Shown: piece by piece, positions 36,138 to 41,662 of the stretch
How positions within the stretch are numbered: position 1 is the stretch's first letter
How the letters are laid out: every line of letters starts with the position of its first letter
Assembly (NCBI RefSeq): GCF_900114325.1
Contig: NZ_FOSR01000001.1
Span: 1-64,000 of the forward strand
Direction of reading: 5' to 3'
DNA from: Rhodanobacter glycinis
Lineage (GTDB): Bacteria > Pseudomonadota > Gammaproteobacteria > Xanthomonadales > Rhodanobacteraceae
Length of the DNA stretch: 64,000 bases
The notes under the pieces: generated by a model
Seen by the model: only the letters and a program-made list of their open reading frames with translations
What the model was told of the DNA's origin: nothing
Database searches by the model: none
Program-made: the position numbers and the translations under genes

Positions 36138-38012
36138 TCAACCCGGTGGCGCAAGCTGTGCCTGTACCTCGTTGATCGAATCGCGGATGCGCTTGCTGAA
36201 CACCGAATCGTCGTGGTGGATCAGCACCAGCCGTTCGGTGGCGCGGGTCATCGCCACGTAGAGCAGGCGCGCCTCATCGGCTTCGCCTTGGCCGGGCTTG
36301 GGCAGCGAGCCGAGGCCGGGAATGATGACGAACGGAAATTCCAGCCCCTTGCTGGAATGCATGGTGACCAGCTTCACGCTGTCGCCCACCACAAACAGCG
36401 AGCTCTTGCCGTTGCCCTCGGCGAGCCGGCTGGGGATGTCCTCGCGGCGCAGGGCTTCCTGGAGCTTCTCGCCTTCCCACTGGTTGCGAAAGATCACCGC
36501 CATGTCGGAGTACGGACGGCCGTGCGCGTGTTCGTCGCGCAATTGGGCGATCAGCGCGTCGAGCTGGGCTGCCGCGGTGTCGGTGCGGATCAGTTCGGGC
36601 AGCGGGCCACGCCGGCCGGCGCTTTCCGGCGCGATCAGCGGGATGCCGTCGTCCTCATCGGGGCGCTCGGCAAGCAGCTCGCTGGCGAAGCCACGCGCCA
36701 CGGCAAGAATCTCCAGCGTGTTGCGGTAGTTGAGCTTGAGGATGGTGGTGCGCCCCTGCGCCTGCACGCCCATGCTCTTCCAGCTGATTTTCTTGCGGCT
36801 GGCCTGGCCGTAGATGTTCTGCGCGTCGTCGTACAACACCAGCAGCGAGTTGGTGGACGGGTCGATCATCTGCACGATCAGCTTGTACCAGTCCGGCTCG
36901 AAATCGTGGCCTTCGTCGATCAGCACGGCGCCGTACTGGAAGCGCGGAATCTGGCCCTTGTCCACGCCGGCGATGACGGCCGGCGGCAACGCGTCGGTGA
37001 AGGCCTTGCCGTGGCCCGGTGGCAGCGGCTCGTGATAAGCCACCAGCATTTTCCGGCACCACTTGTGGAAGTTGTACACCTGCACCCGTTCGCTCAGGCC
37101 GCGTTCGCCGATCAATTGTTCCAGCCGCGCGGCCAGCGTCTTGTTGTAGCAGAGCACCAGGATCGGCTTGTGCAGCGCACGCGCCAGTTGCATGGCGCGG
37201 AAGCCGAGGATCATCGTCTTGCCCGAGCCGGCGACGCCGTGGATGATGCGGTGCTCGTCGCCCAGCGAACGCGCCAGTTGTTCCTGCTGGGCGTCCATCA
37301 CCTTGACCAGGTCGGGAATCGCCAGCGTACGCGACGCGCTCTCGCCGGATGACGCGAACAGGCCGAACTGGCCGCTGCCCGGTTCCACGCGCAGCTCCGG
37401 GAACAGGTGCCAGCGCACGCGGTCGATCTGCGGCAGGGTCAGGGCCACCGGAAACACCTGCGGGAACATCGCCCACAGCTGTTCCTGGAATACCTCGGCG
37501 TCGGCCGTCTCGTAGAGCTCGTCGCGGCAGATCGCCAGATGGTCGGGAATCACCGCCGCCAGCCCGCCGTCGATGAACTGTTTGCGCGTGATGTTGGCCA
37601 GGATCACGCCGTAGGCCCACGGCATGATCAGCTTGCCGGCATGACGGTGCCCTTCGGGGTGGCGCAGGGCCGGGTCGCGTTCCAGTACCACGCCGATTTC
37701 CAGCGCGTAGGCGCGAGCCTGCAACAGCGGACTGGTTTCCTTGGCCAGCCCGCGGTCGGTGACCAGGGTGAACTGGGTACGGTCAGCCTGCTGGATCGTC
37801 TCGGCCTTCCAGTCCTTCACTTCCAGCACCAGCAGGCCGCGGCGCGGGTGGAACACCACGAAGTCCGGGCGACGCTGCTTCAGTCCGATCGGTACGTCGT
37901 ACCACAGCAGGTAGTCGTCCTCGAGCTTCTGTTCCAGTCGCTCGGAAACACGCTTCTCGCCGCCGGTCATGCGCGGCAGGCAGCTGTTGCGGGTCGGAAT
38001 GAGTGTTGCCAC
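36138..38012 (-). CDS. NERD-domain UvrD-like superfamily I helicase
   Basis: This 624-residue protein starts with a NERD (nuclease-related) domain: MTGGEKRVSERLEQKLEDDYLLWYDV, PDFVVFHPRRGLLVLEVKDW, with the D...ExK core of the fold. The helicase part follows: GVAGSGKTMIL (Walker A), VLIDEGHDF (motif II), KLNYRN (motif IV), VKLVTMHSSKGLEF and RLLYVAMTRAT (motif VI). It probably processes DNA ends or foreign DNA. The GTG start at 38012 has AGGGAAG upstream and begins at the family consensus ATLIPTRNS; an ATG at 38075 is possible. Confidence 0.9.
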   Translation of the reverse strand: MATLIPTRNSCLPRMTGGEKRVSERLEQKLEDDYLLWYDVPIGLKQRRPDFVVFHPRRGLLVLEVKDWKAETIQQADRTQFTLVTDRGLAKETSPLLQARAYALEIGVVLERDPALRHPEGHRHAGKLIMPWAYGVILANITRKQFIDGGLAAVIPDHLAICRDELYETADAEVFQEQLWAMFPQVFPVALTLPQIDRVRWHLFPELRVEPGSGQFGLFASSGESASRTLAIPDLVKVMDAQQEQLARSLGDEHRIIHGVAGSGKTMILGFRAMQLARALHKPILVLCYNKTLAARLEQLIGERGLSERVQVYNFHKWCRKMLVAYHEPLPPGHGKAFTDALPPAVIAGVDKGQIPRFQYGAVLIDEGHDFEPDWYKLIVQMIDPSTNSLLVLYDDAQNIYGQASRKKISWKSMGVQAQGRTTILKLNYRNTLEILAVARGFASELLAERPDEDDGIPLIAPESAGRRGPLPELIRTDTAAAQLDALIAQLRDEHAHGRPYSDMAVIFRNQWEGEKLQEALRREDIPSRLAEGNGKSSLFVVGDSVKLVTMHSSKGLEFPFVIIPGLGSLPKPGQGEADEARLLYVAMTRATERLVLIHHDDSVFSKRIRDSINEVQAQLAPPG

Positions 38013-38101
38013 CGTGGATTGCTTCCCTGGATGCCCTTCCGGGACGTTAGCCGAACCGGTGGCGCTGTCAATCATGCGGCATCGTCTCGCGAGCGAATCC
38101 C

Positions 38102-38208
38102 ACTCCCTGTGGGAGAGGGTGGCGGAAGCCGGGTGAGGGTGCGGGCGGAGCGGGGTGCTACGGCGAAGCCGTACCCTCACCCCAACCCCTCTCCCGACGG
38201 GAGAGGGG
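38102..38208. repeat. Intergenic palindromic repeat (CCCTCTCCC type)
   Basis: Nested hairpins are present: CTCCCTGTGGGAG near 38103, GGGTGAGGGT (38131-38140) facing ACCCTCACCC (38173-38182), and CCCCTCTCCC-GAC-GGGAGAGGGG (38186-38208). Sequences of this style are frequent between genes in xanthomonads and pseudomonads. It lies in the divergent region between the helicase gene and the DAHP synthase leader. Confidence 0.75.
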
Positions 38209-38257
38209 CGTAAGGCCTGGAGGGGCATCCCTGCATGCCGTCATGCCAAACGAGACT

Positions 38258-38285
38258 TTGCACGCGCCCGGCATCGTGCTATTTG
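38258..38285 (+). promoter_or_regulatory. Possible promoter of the DAHP synthase leader
   Basis: TTGCAC (38258-38263) and TATTTG (38280-38285) are 16 bases apart. Transcription would start near 38292, next to the leader-peptide ATG at 38293, so the leader could be translated without a 5' untranslated region. No ribosome binding site is seen there. Confidence 0.4.
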
Positions 38286-38292
38286 TAGAAAC

Positions 38293-38376
38293 ATGATCCT
38301 CTCTTCCACCCGCTACTACTTTTGGTTTTATGGCTATCCGATGCCGGCGGCGGAGAGTGGAGCGCGATTGCAGTAA
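38293..38376 (+). CDS. Aromatic leader peptide (attenuation control of DAHP synthase)
   Basis: A 27-residue frame, MILSSTRYYFWFYGYPMPAA plus ESGARLQ, has aromatic residues in seven of eight consecutive codons (residues 8-15: Tyr-Tyr-Phe-Trp-Phe-Tyr-Gly-Tyr). Such clustering is expected only for a leader peptide that senses charged tRNAs for the three aromatic amino acids. It is followed by a perfect terminator at 38403 and by the DAHP synthase gene. Ribosome stalling at residues 8-15 would leave GGCGGC (38346-38351) free to pair with GCCGCC (38406-38411) and so break the terminator. Confidence 0.85.
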   Translation: MILSSTRYYFWFYGYPMPAAESGARLQ

Positions 38377-38402
38377 ACCGAAAATCGCACAGACAACCAC
38401 AG

Positions 38403-38432
38403 AAAGCCGCCAGTCACCCTGGCGGCTTTTTT
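38403..38432 (+). terminator. Attenuator terminator upstream of DAHP synthase
   Basis: GCCGCCAG and CTGGCGGC form an 8-bp stem, extended by A-T pairs, around the loop TCACC, followed by six T. It lies between the aromatic leader peptide and the DAHP synthase start at 38466, so it can only reduce expression of that gene. An upstream GGCGGC offers the competing antiterminator pairing. Confidence 0.9.
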
Positions 38433-38465
38433 GTTGGCCGCCGGAAACCACCCAAGGAGTCCACC

Positions 38466-39563
38466 GTGTCCAGCCACACCGACGATCTGCGCATCCGCGA
38501 GATCAGGGAATTGCCCACCCCCGCCCAAGTGATGCGCGAGCATGCCCCCGACGAGAACGCGCTTGCCACCGTGAGCGAGTCGCGCCAGGCGCTGCACCAC
38601 ATCCTGCACGGTCGCGACGATCGCCTGGCCGTGGTCATCGGGCCATGCTCGATCCACGATCCGCACGCCGCATTCGAGTACGCCACGCGCCTTGCCGTCG
38701 AGCGTGTTCGTCATGCCGGCGAACTGGAGATCGTGATGCGCGTGTACTTCGAAAAGCCGCGCACCACGGTGGGCTGGAAAGGGCTGATCAACGATCCGGA
38801 GCTGGATGGCAGTTGCCGCATCGACAAGGGTCTGCGGCTGGCGCGCAACCTGCTGTGCGACATCAATGCACTGGGACTGCCGGCCGGCTGCGAGTTCCTG
38901 GACATGATCACGCCGCAGTACATCGCCGACCTGGTGGCATGGGGTGCCATCGGCGCGCGCACCACCGAAAGCCAGGTGCATCGCGAGCTGGCCTCGGGGC
39001 TGTCCTGTCCGGTGGGCTTCAAGAATGGCACCGACGGCAACGTGAAGATCGCGGTGGATGCCGTGCAGGCAGCCTCGCAACCGCATCATTTCATGGCCGT
39101 GACCAAGGACGGGCACACGGCCATCGCGGCCACCAGCGGCAACGAGGATTGCCATGTGATCCTGCGTGGCGGCAAGACGCCGAACTACGACGCGGCCAGC
39201 GTGGATGCGGCCTGCGCCGCGATCGGCAAGAGCGGCCTGGAGCCGCATGTGATGATCGACGCCAGCCACGCCAACAGCAGCAAGAAGCCGGAGAACCAGC
39301 CGCGCGTGGTAGCGGATATCGCCGGACAGATCGAGGCGGGCGAGCGGCGCATCGTCGGGGTGATGGTGGAAAGCCATCTCAACGCCGGTCGCCAGGAACT
39401 GGTGCCGGGCCAGCCGCTGGCTTACGGCCAGAGCGTCACCGATGGCTGCCTTGGCTGGGACGAGTCCGTACGCGTGCTGGAACGGTTGGCGCAAGCCGTG
39501 CGCCGACGCCGCGCGCTGGCCGTGGATGGATTCGCACCGGTGCGACTGCAGGCGGCGGGTTGA
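38466..39563 (+). CDS. 3-deoxy-7-phosphoheptulonate (DAHP) synthase, class I
   Basis: This 365-residue enzyme joins phosphoenolpyruvate and erythrose 4-phosphate, the first step of aromatic amino acid synthesis. The AroF/G/H pattern is clear: LAVVIGPCSIHDPHAAFEYA, MRVYFEKPRTTVGWKGLINDP, GARTTESQVHRELASGLS, GFKNGTDG, VMIDASHANSSKKPENQ, VMVESHLNAGRQ. The start is GTG at 38466 with AAGGAG six bases before. Which amino acid inhibits it cannot be told. An upstream leader peptide with Tyr, Phe and Trp codons suggests control by all three. Confidence 0.95.
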   Translation: MSSHTDDLRIREIRELPTPAQVMREHAPDENALATVSESRQALHHILHGRDDRLAVVIGPCSIHDPHAAFEYATRLAVERVRHAGELEIVMRVYFEKPRTTVGWKGLINDPELDGSCRIDKGLRLARNLLCDINALGLPAGCEFLDMITPQYIADLVAWGAIGARTTESQVHRELASGLSCPVGFKNGTDGNVKIAVDAVQAASQPHHFMAVTKDGHTAIAATSGNEDCHVILRGGKTPNYDAASVDAACAAIGKSGLEPHVMIDASHANSSKKPENQPRVVADIAGQIEAGERRIVGVMVESHLNAGRQELVPGQPLAYGQSVTDGCLGWDESVRVLERLAQAVRRRRALAVDGFAPVRLQAAG

Positions 39564-40155: not shown

Positions 40156-40431
40156 ATGACGCCCGACGTCCGCCATGACGCTTCCGCGCATCGTTTCGAG
40201 ATCCTCGTCGACGGCTCGCTGTGCGAGCTGGACTACACGCTGGAACACGGGGTCATGACCATTACCCATACCGGCGTGCCCGAGGCGGTCGGCGGGCGCG
40301 GGCTGGCCGGGGCGCTGGTACGTGCAGCGATGGAAACGGCGCGGGCGCAGGGCTGGAAGGTGGTGCCGGCGTGCAGCTACGCCTCCGTCTGGGTGCAGCG
40401 CCATCCGGAGTACGACGACCTGCTCGCCTGA
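40156..40431 (+). CDS. Short GNAT-type N-acetyltransferase
   Basis: This 91-residue protein is the minimal GNAT fold of the COG2388 type: FEILVDGSLCELDYTLEHGVMTITHTGVPEAVGGRGLAGALVRAAMETARAQGWKVVPACSYASVWVQRHPEYDDL. The acetyl-CoA loop is VGGRGLAGAL. The substrate is unknown. AGGAAA precedes the ATG. It is followed after 43 bases by the DUF1345 gene and is probably in the same operon. Confidence 0.88.
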   Translation: MTPDVRHDASAHRFEILVDGSLCELDYTLEHGVMTITHTGVPEAVGGRGLAGALVRAAMETARAQGWKVVPACSYASVWVQRHPEYDDLLA

Positions 40432-40474
40432 AGCCACCCGTTGCCCGTTGCCGTATCCGAATGCAGGAAAGCCC

Positions 40475-41167
40475 GTGACCGAACCACCCGAGTCGACGCC
40501 CGTGGAGGACGCTGCCACCCATCGCCGCTGGCACCCGCTGCGCTACATCCGTGTGCGACCAAGGTTGATGACATCCACCGTGATTTTCGTGGTGGTCGGT
40601 ACGTTGTTGGCCTTGGGCGGAACCCGAACGTCCCTGGCAATGCTGCTGGCTTTCGATGTCGGTGCGTTGCTCTATCTGATCGCGCTGGCGCGCATGTTCA
40701 CGCGCTCCAACCATGGCCACCTGGCACGCCAGGCCCGATTGCAGGACACGGGGCGCCACGCCACGCTGGCGGTCGCCGTGCTGGTGTCGATGGTGGTGCT
40801 GGTGGCGCTGGCGACCGAATTGCATGCGGCCAAGGCGGGCGGCGTGGCGGCGATTGGCGTGGCGGCGGGCAGCGTGATCCTGTCATGGCTGTTCATGAAC
40901 ACCACGTTCGCGCTGCATTACGCGCACAGCTTCTACGGCGAGGACGACAGCCGGGCCGGCGGTCTGGAATTTCCTTCCACGCCCAAGCCCGACTATTGGG
41001 ATTTCGTGTATTTCTCGTTCGTCATCGGCATGTGCTTCCAGACCTCGGACGTGACCGTCAGTGGTCGGCACATGCGTCGCCTCACGCTCATGCACAGCGT
41101 GGTGGCGTTTTTCTTCAACGTGTTCATCCTGGCGATCAGCGTCAGCGTGGTGGGCGGCCTGGGCTGA
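40475..41167 (+). CDS. DUF1345 family integral membrane protein
   Basis: This 230-residue protein has five transmembrane helices and the family block FMNTTFALHYAHSFYGEDD followed by DYWDFVYFSFVIGMCFQTSDVTVSGRHMRRLTLMHSVVAFFFNVFILAISVSV. Function is unknown; the last part looks like a two-helix channel pore region. A GTG at 40475 preceded by AGGAAA is the best start. Confidence 0.85.
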   Translation: MTEPPESTPVEDAATHRRWHPLRYIRVRPRLMTSTVIFVVVGTLLALGGTRTSLAMLLAFDVGALLYLIALARMFTRSNHGHLARQARLQDTGRHATLAVAVLVSMVVLVALATELHAAKAGGVAAIGVAAGSVILSWLFMNTTFALHYAHSFYGEDDSRAGGLEFPSTPKPDYWDFVYFSFVIGMCFQTSDVTVSGRHMRRLTLMHSVVAFFFNVFILAISVSVVGGLG

Positions 41168-41179
41168 GCCTGCGCCGGT

Positions 41180-41662
41180 TCAGTCGCGAAAGTTGTCGAA
41201 CTGCAGCGGCAGTTCCACCTCGGACTTGCGCAACAGGGCCATGGCCAGTTGCAGGTCGTCGCGCTTCTTGCCGGTGACGCGCAGCTTGTCGCCGTTGATC
41301 TGCGCTTCGACCTTGAGCTTGGCGGCCTTCAGTTCGGCTACCAGTTTCTTCGCGACCGGCTGCTCGATGCCCTGTTTCACGGTGATCTTCTGGCGTGCGC
41401 CGGCCAGGTTGGTTTCCGGGTCGGCCACGTCCAGCGCGCGAACGTCGATCTTCCGCGAGATCAGCCGGGCGCGCAGGATGTCCAGCATCTGCTGCAGCTG
41501 GAATTCGCTGGGTGCGCTCTGGGTGATCTCGAACTTGTCCAGCTCGAACTTCGCGTCGCTGCCCTTGAAATCGAAGCGGCTGGCCAGCTCGCGGTTGGCC
41601 TGGTCCACGGCATTGGTGAGTTCGTGCTTGTCGACTTCGGAGATCACGTCGAAGGAAGGCAT
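41180..41662 (-). CDS. yajQ: YajQ family nucleotide (cyclic di-GMP) binding protein
   Basis: This 160-residue protein matches YajQ: MPSFDVISEVDKHELTNAVDQANRELASRFDFKGSDAKFEL, then ISRKIDVRALD, KKLVAELKAAKLKVEAQINGDKLRVTGKKRDDLQ and LPLQFDNFRD at the end. In Xanthomonas the homologue binds cyclic di-GMP and affects virulence genes. The same role here is inference, but the window also holds a GGDEF protein. It is convergent with the DUF1345 gene and divergent from the flavoprotein gene. Confidence 0.95.
   Translation of the reverse strand: MPSFDVISEVDKHELTNAVDQANRELASRFDFKGSDAKFELDKFEITQSAPSEFQLQQMLDILRARLISRKIDVRALDVADPETNLAGARQKITVKQGIEQPVAKKLVAELKAAKLKVEAQINGDKLRVTGKKRDDLQLAMALLRKSEVELPLQFDNFRD

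Follow-up and report, generated by a model that had tools for sequence, protein, structure and literature searches.

The window, by which we mean the whole 64,000-nucleotide stretch of Rhodanobacter glycinis DNA that was analysed, carries on its forward strand a short reading frame rich in aromatic codons, a hairpin with a T run, and a gene for a class I DAHP synthase. The leader peptide, MILSSTRYYFWFYGYPMPAAESGARLQ, has aromatic residues at 7 of its 27 codons, and the terminator at 38403-38432 reads AAAGCCGCCAG-TCACC-CTGGCGGCTTT, then the T run. This is the layout described in an earlier note on this DNA: a 27-codon leader at 38293 with Tyr-Tyr-Phe-Trp-Phe-Tyr-Gly-Tyr, a terminator and then the DAHP synthase gene, with GGCGGC at 38346-38351, which can pair with GCCGCC in the 5' arm of the terminator. 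The features, all on the + strand, are:

38257..38262, +: TTTGCA, a -35-like element spaced 17 nt from the -10-like element
38277..38286, +: extended -10-like element TGC-TATTTGT; TGNTAY kept in relatives
38293..38376, +: leader peptide ORF, 27 codons (ATG 38293, TAA 38374-38376), on a predicted leaderless mRNA
38297..38314, +: region 1, putative protector, predicted to pair with region 2 in ribosome-free RNA (MFE structure, shuffle control)
38314..38331, +: Tyr-Tyr-Phe-Trp-Phe-Tyr codons Y8-Y13, within the predicted stalling window
38345..38361, +: region 2, left arm of the predicted antiterminator, with GGCGG; lies within the leader ORF and copies the region 4 core
38403..38413, +: region 3, AAAGCCGCCAG, terminator 5' arm; CCGCC invariant in a 48-sequence alignment
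38419..38432, +: region 4, CTGGCGGCTTT plus T run, terminator 3' arm; covaries with region 3
38454..38459, +: Shine-Dalgarno (SD) sequence AAGGAG of aroG, read from the sequence and from duplex energies in relatives
38466..39563, +: aroG, class I DAHP synthase, GTG start at 38466 (TIGR00034, PF00793)

The ORF from GTG 38466 scores 526 bits against TIGR00034 (aroFGH; cut-off 173) and 316 bits against PF00793, which bears out the call of a DAHP synthase. Its isozyme label is not settled by the profiles: the AroG equivalog NF006723 is missed narrowly (550, cut-off 568) and the AroH subfamily NF009396 is reached (506, cut-off 463). The name aroG is retained from the earlier note.

Two frames of fewer than 80 codons in the window have at least six Phe, Trp or Tyr among eight consecutive codons, and only the aroG leader is then followed by a strong hairpin and T run; in 40 dinucleotide-preserving shuffles of the window no such frame arises, with or without a hairpin. 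A consensus scan for terminators and promoters lists neither at the leader locus, the terminator probably because stem and T run overlap, the promoter because its hexamers are degenerate. The nearest upstream gene, a NERD/UvrD ORF at 36138-38228 on the minus strand, is divergent, so that no upstream operon ends at the terminator, a point in favour of the attenuator reading. Close to the leader promoter, on its upstream side, lie two copies of an inverted repeat, CCCTCTCCC-N3-GGGAGAGGG, at 38099-38119 and 38187-38207, one with 1 mismatch (none in 100 shuffles of the window). Both fall in the N-terminal end of the NERD/UvrD ORF as listed, the true start of which is probably further in. A DUF1345 gene (40322-41167, +) and a DUF520 gene (41180-41662, -) are also found near aroG.

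Conservation of the leader in the family

Class I DAHP synthase is present in 91 of 197 genomes of the window's family (92 matches, a partial second match of one genome, G165, being dropped), and about 600 nt upstream of each of the 91 homologues were taken for a leader screen. A leader of 22-28 codons precedes aroG in 90, starting with ATG in 89 and GTG in 1, at 161-268 nt ahead of the aroG match (the leader start of G030 was set by hand). All 90 have Tyr, Phe and Trp codons, a richness partly built in, as leaders were picked by aromatic content, and each of the 90 also carries a T run and a hairpin built on a CCGCC/GGCGG core. A mechanical screen is passed by 90 of the 91 family upstreams and by 0 of 890 composition-only shuffles of class-level upstreams. 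Loss of the aromatic codons or the terminator in close relatives, the outcome that the earlier note had set against its own reading, is thus not what the family displays: both are kept in 90 of 91 homologues. The sole family locus lacking a leader is that of G136 (L081, L306), where the upstream sequence is unrelated and, by eye, a different hairpin lies before the kept TTTTCATGG.

Two kinds of selection can be read along the ORF. In an alignment anchored on Trp, the Trp codon is at the same place in 90/90 leaders, one codon before it Phe is found in 83 of 90 (TTT 60, TTC 23), and two codons before it Tyr in 77 (TAC 39, TAT 38); at some positions of the aromatic block Tyr, Phe and Trp replace one another. 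Nine codons after Trp, by contrast, 77 leaders have Ala, encoded by GCG in 77/77, and the preceding codon, in most leaders one for Leu, Ala, Thr, Pro or Gln, has G as its last base almost without exception; GGCGG lies inside the leader ORF at nt 51-60 in 88/90. The aromatic block looks to be kept for its encoded residues, and the region 2 core for its bases.

Alignment A1, holding 48 of the 90 family sequences and used for CCGCC invariance, was also used for terminator covariation: 22 cells are changed on both sides of the stem vs 4.9 in shuffles, with 0/500 shuffles as high. Covariation exceeds shuffles in three of five measures; the other two, pairs with two-sided changes (3 vs 2.2) and further pair types (8 vs 7.2), are not above them. 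The antiterminator has no covariation support (67.1% of cells paired vs 68.5% in shuffles), because its core does not vary.

Promoter position and the start of the leader mRNA

The sequence before the leader ATG is also constrained. TGNTAY occurs within -20..-7 of the ATG in 88/90 relatives (shuffled mean 4.6, maximum 12/90), and the -10-like element starts 13-15 nt ahead of the ATG in 85/90. Farther upstream T is enriched at -37 to -35, with T at -36 in 82/90, and TTG or TTTS is found within -42..-29 in 86/90; position -1 is C in 83/90. The conserved -10- and -35-like elements and the C at -1 would have transcription begin with the A of the leader ATG or 1-2 nt away from it.

Ribosome-binding signals differ between the two genes. 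At the leader ATG the mean SD duplex energy is -0.64 kcal/mol and reaches -5 or below in 0/90; shuffled upstreams, which, like the promoter shuffles, keep base composition only, reach -5 in 30/450, i.e., more commonly than real ones. The aroG start, scored as the best of several candidate starts in 89 of the 90 relatives, has a mean of -6.86, with 79/89 at or below -5. The position of the promoter and the absence of an SD sequence argue that the leader mRNA is probably leaderless in this family. A parallel is Sinorhizobium meliloti trpL (rnTrpL), a leader RNA that begins with the ATG of its peptide, as described in the cited part of PMC7298713; it differs in lying upstream of trpE(G) and in its control by Trp. 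The idea that all aromatic leaders are leaderless was dropped: by eye, Burkholderia and several Oxalobacteraceae loci have a TATA-like box some 30-46 nt ahead of the ATG.

Ribosome position and the RNA switch

Folding was computed on RNA cut before the terminator 3' arm, and the probability that region 2 pairs with region 3, P(2:3), was obtained with a ribosome placed along the leader. Over 90 sequences mean P(2:3) is 0.27 in free RNA and 0.93, 0.95 and 0.94 with the ribosome on Tyr, Phe and Trp, respectively; it is 0.87 one codon past Trp, 0.69 two codons past and 0.13 four codons past. The window sequence gives 0.12 when free, 1.00 with the ribosome at Y8-Y13, 0.08 at G14, 0.02 at Y15 and 0.00 from P16 through R25. 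An E. coli trpL control behaves similarly in the model (free 0.00, W10 0.28, W11 0.60, R12 0.58, stop 0.00), and together these results support the competing structure that the earlier note had proposed. Its further proposal, that all three aromatic tRNAs are sensed, is deduced from the codons: Tyr, Phe and Trp codons are indeed present, yet the value at Y15 implies that the last Tyr codon is probably outside the predicted stalling window.

A part is also predicted for the bases ahead of the block. Shuffling them raises P(2:3) of the free RNA from 0.27 to 0.79 (90 sequences, 450 composition-only shuffles), so region 1 looks selected as a protector; free 1:2 pairing has a mean probability of 0.61 and exceeds 0.5 in 63/90 sequences. 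Other results of the model are less tidy. Free RNA favours 2:3 pairing (>0.5) in 19/90, which counts against a clean switch. Mean P(2:3) is already 0.86 with the ribosome at codon 3, and 0.99-1.00 at S4-R7 of the window sequence: a ribosome held before the block also gives antitermination, so that the model alone does not set the aromatic codons apart from those upstream of them. At the stop codon mean P(2:3) is 0.39, with values above 0.5 in 35/90, and the window sequence gives 0.72 at L26, 1.00 at Q27 and 0.71 at the stop; a high level of basal read-through may follow if release is not fast. In the model, then, high P(2:3) before the block and at the leader end points against a tight, purely aromatic switch.

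The following sequence of events is proposed. Transcription would begin with the leader AUG or beside it; a ribosome would load on the bare 5' end and trail RNA polymerase. When charged Tyr, Phe or Trp tRNA is short, the ribosome would stall in the YYFWFY block and cover region 1, leaving GGCGG of region 2 free to pair with CCGCC of region 3; this 2:3 pairing would block the 3:4 terminator, and aroG would be transcribed. When the tRNAs are charged, the moving ribosome would mask region 2, or region 1 would pair with it, and the 3:4 terminator would form, as it would if no ribosome had loaded; termination would leave a leader RNA of about 140 nt.

The computations show that the element is conserved, that two kinds of selection act on the ORF, that the terminator covaries and that the pairing is predicted to shift as the ribosome moves. 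The element is very probably a ribosome-mediated transcription attenuator of aroG, predicted to respond to starvation; where transcription starts, how the cell responds and what part each amino acid has in this are inferred.

Genome context, distribution and known systems

The aroG protein has one match in its own genome, which also encodes one class II DAHP synthase (G000:C6:146708-148009). Class II enzymes are found in 193/197 family genomes vs 91/197 for class I; being set beside a nearly universal class II enzyme, the attenuated aroG appears as a second, optional entry enzyme. An attenuator before the class II gene was considered and rejected: the Trp-rich stretch MPWWSLIWFV... is the C-terminal end of a DsbB-family ORF, which ends 35 nt before the class II match, and the T run of the best hairpin in that region is poor. 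An ORF scan upstream of trpE and pheA of this genome, set to small ORFs with 4 of 7 codons aromatic or 2 of 5 codons Trp, finds none; at L308, a second trpE-model match below the cut-off, there is a single ORF, which contains 2 Trp but is not rich in aromatics. Among the aromatic genes checked in this genome, only aroG has an aromatic leader.

A TyrR-type HTH (TIGR04381) has no match in this genome and matches its E. coli control; a TrpR-like protein is present (PF01371, which also matches the B. subtilis control). The missing TyrR-type HTH counts in favour of the attenuator reading; the class II enzyme means that aroG is not the sole point of entry, which qualifies the contrast with E. coli drawn in the earlier note. 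By eye, a GTAATAACGCGTTAGTAC palindrome lies upstream of the start of the TrpR-like gene (G000:C16:51561, L223), a gene that is possibly autoregulated. That a TrpR- or TyrR-like repressor controls the aroG promoter, with the leader and terminator acting only as a fixed brake, can draw on this protein and its palindrome; we consider it extremely doubtful, given the missing TyrR-type HTH, the absence, by eye, of a GTAATAACGCGTTAGTAC-type palindrome upstream of the aroG leader, and the aromatic codons kept through synonymous change, for which a fixed brake would have no need.

For the wider distribution, the named loci are the best 80 of at least 592 listed stretches, those closest to the window's protein, and are ranked by similarity, not drawn at random; three of them (L275, L278, L279) have short upstreams. 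The mechanical screen is passed by 59 of these 80, vs 5 of 800 shuffles (base composition only) at a laxer threshold. Positives among the best 80 include, in Lysobacterales, Dyella (placed by NCBI in Rhodanobacteraceae, Lysobacterales), Rhodanobacter, Xanthomonas and Stenotrophomonas; further, Burkholderia, Paraburkholderia, Caballeronia, Cupriavidus, Oxalobacteraceae, Variovorax, Polaromonas and one Bordetella; and also Bradyrhizobium, Mesorhizobium, Devosia and others. The orders of the other loci are those we presume from their genus and family labels. Among the matches listed, 51 named loci outside Lysobacterales resemble the window in layout but encode other peptides. Of the 59 positives, 45 were inspected in detail: the peptides differ, GGCGG lies in the leader ORF in 40/45, and SD energies at or below -5 occur in 2/45. 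Among the 51 loci, stalling raises P(2:3) above the free value by more than 0.05 in 24 and lowers it in 0; in the other 27 there is no rise above 0.05.

As judged from the sequences, aromatic content is kept across lineages and peptide sequence is not. This bears on the idea of a nascent-peptide arrest switch, in which the peptide and a free aromatic ligand would stall the ribosome as in tnaC, a nascent-peptide arrest system. The order YFWFYGYP is strongly kept within the family, as such a switch would have it; nevertheless, Tyr, Phe and Trp interchange there at some positions, and across lineages the block varies (FYFYFFWYL, YFWYFSY, FFTGYFYF, AYWYFS), with its aromatic content and the CCGCC/GGCGG arms retained for the most part. 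Arrest of this kind seems very improbable to us.

The aroG leaders of Oxalobacteraceae L231, L233-L236, L238-L240, L249 and L264 are Phe/Tyr-rich, and their aromatic block lacks Trp, although one occurs further on in L240 and L249. In several of those examined a TATA-like box stands about 30-42 nt ahead of the ATG, and these leaders are probably not leaderless. Outside Lysobacterales, among the matches listed, 34 of the 51 leaders contain Trp and 17 do not, 10 of these 17 being from Oxalobacteraceae. It is possible, if doubtful, that in practice the leader responds to no more than one or two of the amino acids (Tyr/Phe) and that its single Trp codon is incidental: besides the Trp-less leaders, Corynebacterium glutamicum aroR encodes Phe-Tyr-Phe and yet is reported to respond to Phe, not Tyr (PMC11802643, in the part cited). 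Set against this, the Trp codon of the family leaders, aligned on Trp, keeps its place in 90/90 and is within the predicted stalling window.

From 89 class-level upstreams at the top of the similarity list, not a random sample, 5 pass the automatic screen, and G420, which the screen missed, was added by eye; G471, G303 and G420 have aromatic leaders outside the window's order. A class-wide covariance search returns 41/369 genomes at E <=0.01. Among the 19 non-own loci inspected from the top of the list, with L124-L133 and rows without loci left out, 6 have aromatic leaders before DAHP synthase (G361, G470, G208, G471, G303, G420), 12 have no visible leader and G484 has a possible one; the 41 genomes were thus rejected as a count of attenuators, since 12/19 inspected loci lack such a leader. 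At the weak G484 match (G484:C3:134195-134322, L115) a frame with NFYYFSSRFFF is followed by a terminator and a gene labelled by eye as chorismate-mutase-like, a possible Phe/Tyr attenuator on the terminal branch.

The predicted transcript of about 140 nt, discrete and probably leaderless, raises the alternative that the terminated leader is mainly a trans-acting small RNA or peptide and that aroG attenuation is secondary, with S. meliloti rnTrpL and peTrpL, which act in trans according to the cited part of PMC7298713, as precedent. We regard this as improbable, considering that the leader adjoins aroG in 90/91 family loci and that all 6 aromatic leaders among the 19 inspected covariance loci precede DAHP synthase, with one weak case before a chorismate-mutase-like gene.

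With attenuation of aroG in cis as the preferred reading, the AroG tree speaks to how the element may have spread. On 81 rows taken from the matches listed, the attenuator label needs 8 changes vs a shuffled mean of 18.9, and Hyphomicrobiales AroG proteins stand beside those of Lysobacterales in a 23-row set (99/94), of which 22 have the attenuator and 1 does not; some forks are weak and long branches meet. This placement suggests that gene and leader were transferred together. A bolder version, which is speculative and rather unlikely as a whole, is a horizontally mobile cassette that would have carried class I aroG, together with its leaderless three-aromatic attenuator, between Lysobacterales, Burkholderiales and Hyphomicrobiales; in it one RNA would integrate the supply of Tyr, Phe and Trp, 70S ribosomes loading onto a bare AUG would couple ribosome and polymerase from the first nucleotide, and the terminated mini-mRNA may act in trans.

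Several known systems are comparable. The E. coli ilvGMEDA and thrABC leaders are multivalent attenuators, in which one leader reads several amino acids; the aroG leader resembles them in this respect and differs in carrying aromatic codons where they carry branched-chain or Thr/Ile codons. The aroR leader of the C. glutamicum aroF operon was reportedly described by Neshat in 2014. Attenuation of this DAHP synthase operon is reported in the cited part of PMC11802643, so that attenuation of a DAHP synthase, as the earlier note had it for aroG, is not new in itself: in both cases a leader peptide with aromatic codons precedes the synthase, but, compared by description only, aroR is Phe-Tyr-Phe, reportedly responds to Phe rather than Tyr and belongs to an actinobacterium, whereas the present leader has Tyr, Phe and Trp codons and belongs to proteobacteria. 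E. coli trpL and pheL share the leader peptide and terminator/antiterminator switch and differ in reading one amino acid each and controlling terminal-branch genes (PMC11802643, same part). The Rfam Phe_leader model RF01859 gives the window leader 22.8 bits, below its gathering threshold of 55; at gathering no Rfam family is found in 11 aroG loci, and the search that gave the Phe_leader score brought below-threshold matches only. Machine-learning predictions of RNA regulation for the Shewanella aroF and aroH 5' UTRs include a table entry for aroF, 'Attenuator sensing tyr-tRNA', that cites E. coli work, and the cited part describes no three-aromatic leader (PMC2659441). The words 'DAHP' and 'phenylalanine' are absent from the main text, as available, of a premature-terminator study (PMC2965389). 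In the open-licence PMC literature we found no report of a three-aromatic aroG attenuator in these groups; one may exist elsewhere.

At the level of sequence, the leader attenuator is confirmed as real and widespread in several proteobacterial groups, and the predicted protecting 1:2 pairing, the probable leaderless start and the wide distribution go beyond the earlier note. Aromatic synthesis is controlled chiefly where the shikimate pathway begins. E. coli divides this step among three isozymes under protein repressors; here, in many environmental proteobacteria, one RNA carries codons for all three products. Its leader gene may be missed by annotation, and it offers a natural multi-input sensor and a system for the study of attenuation on a probably leaderless mRNA.
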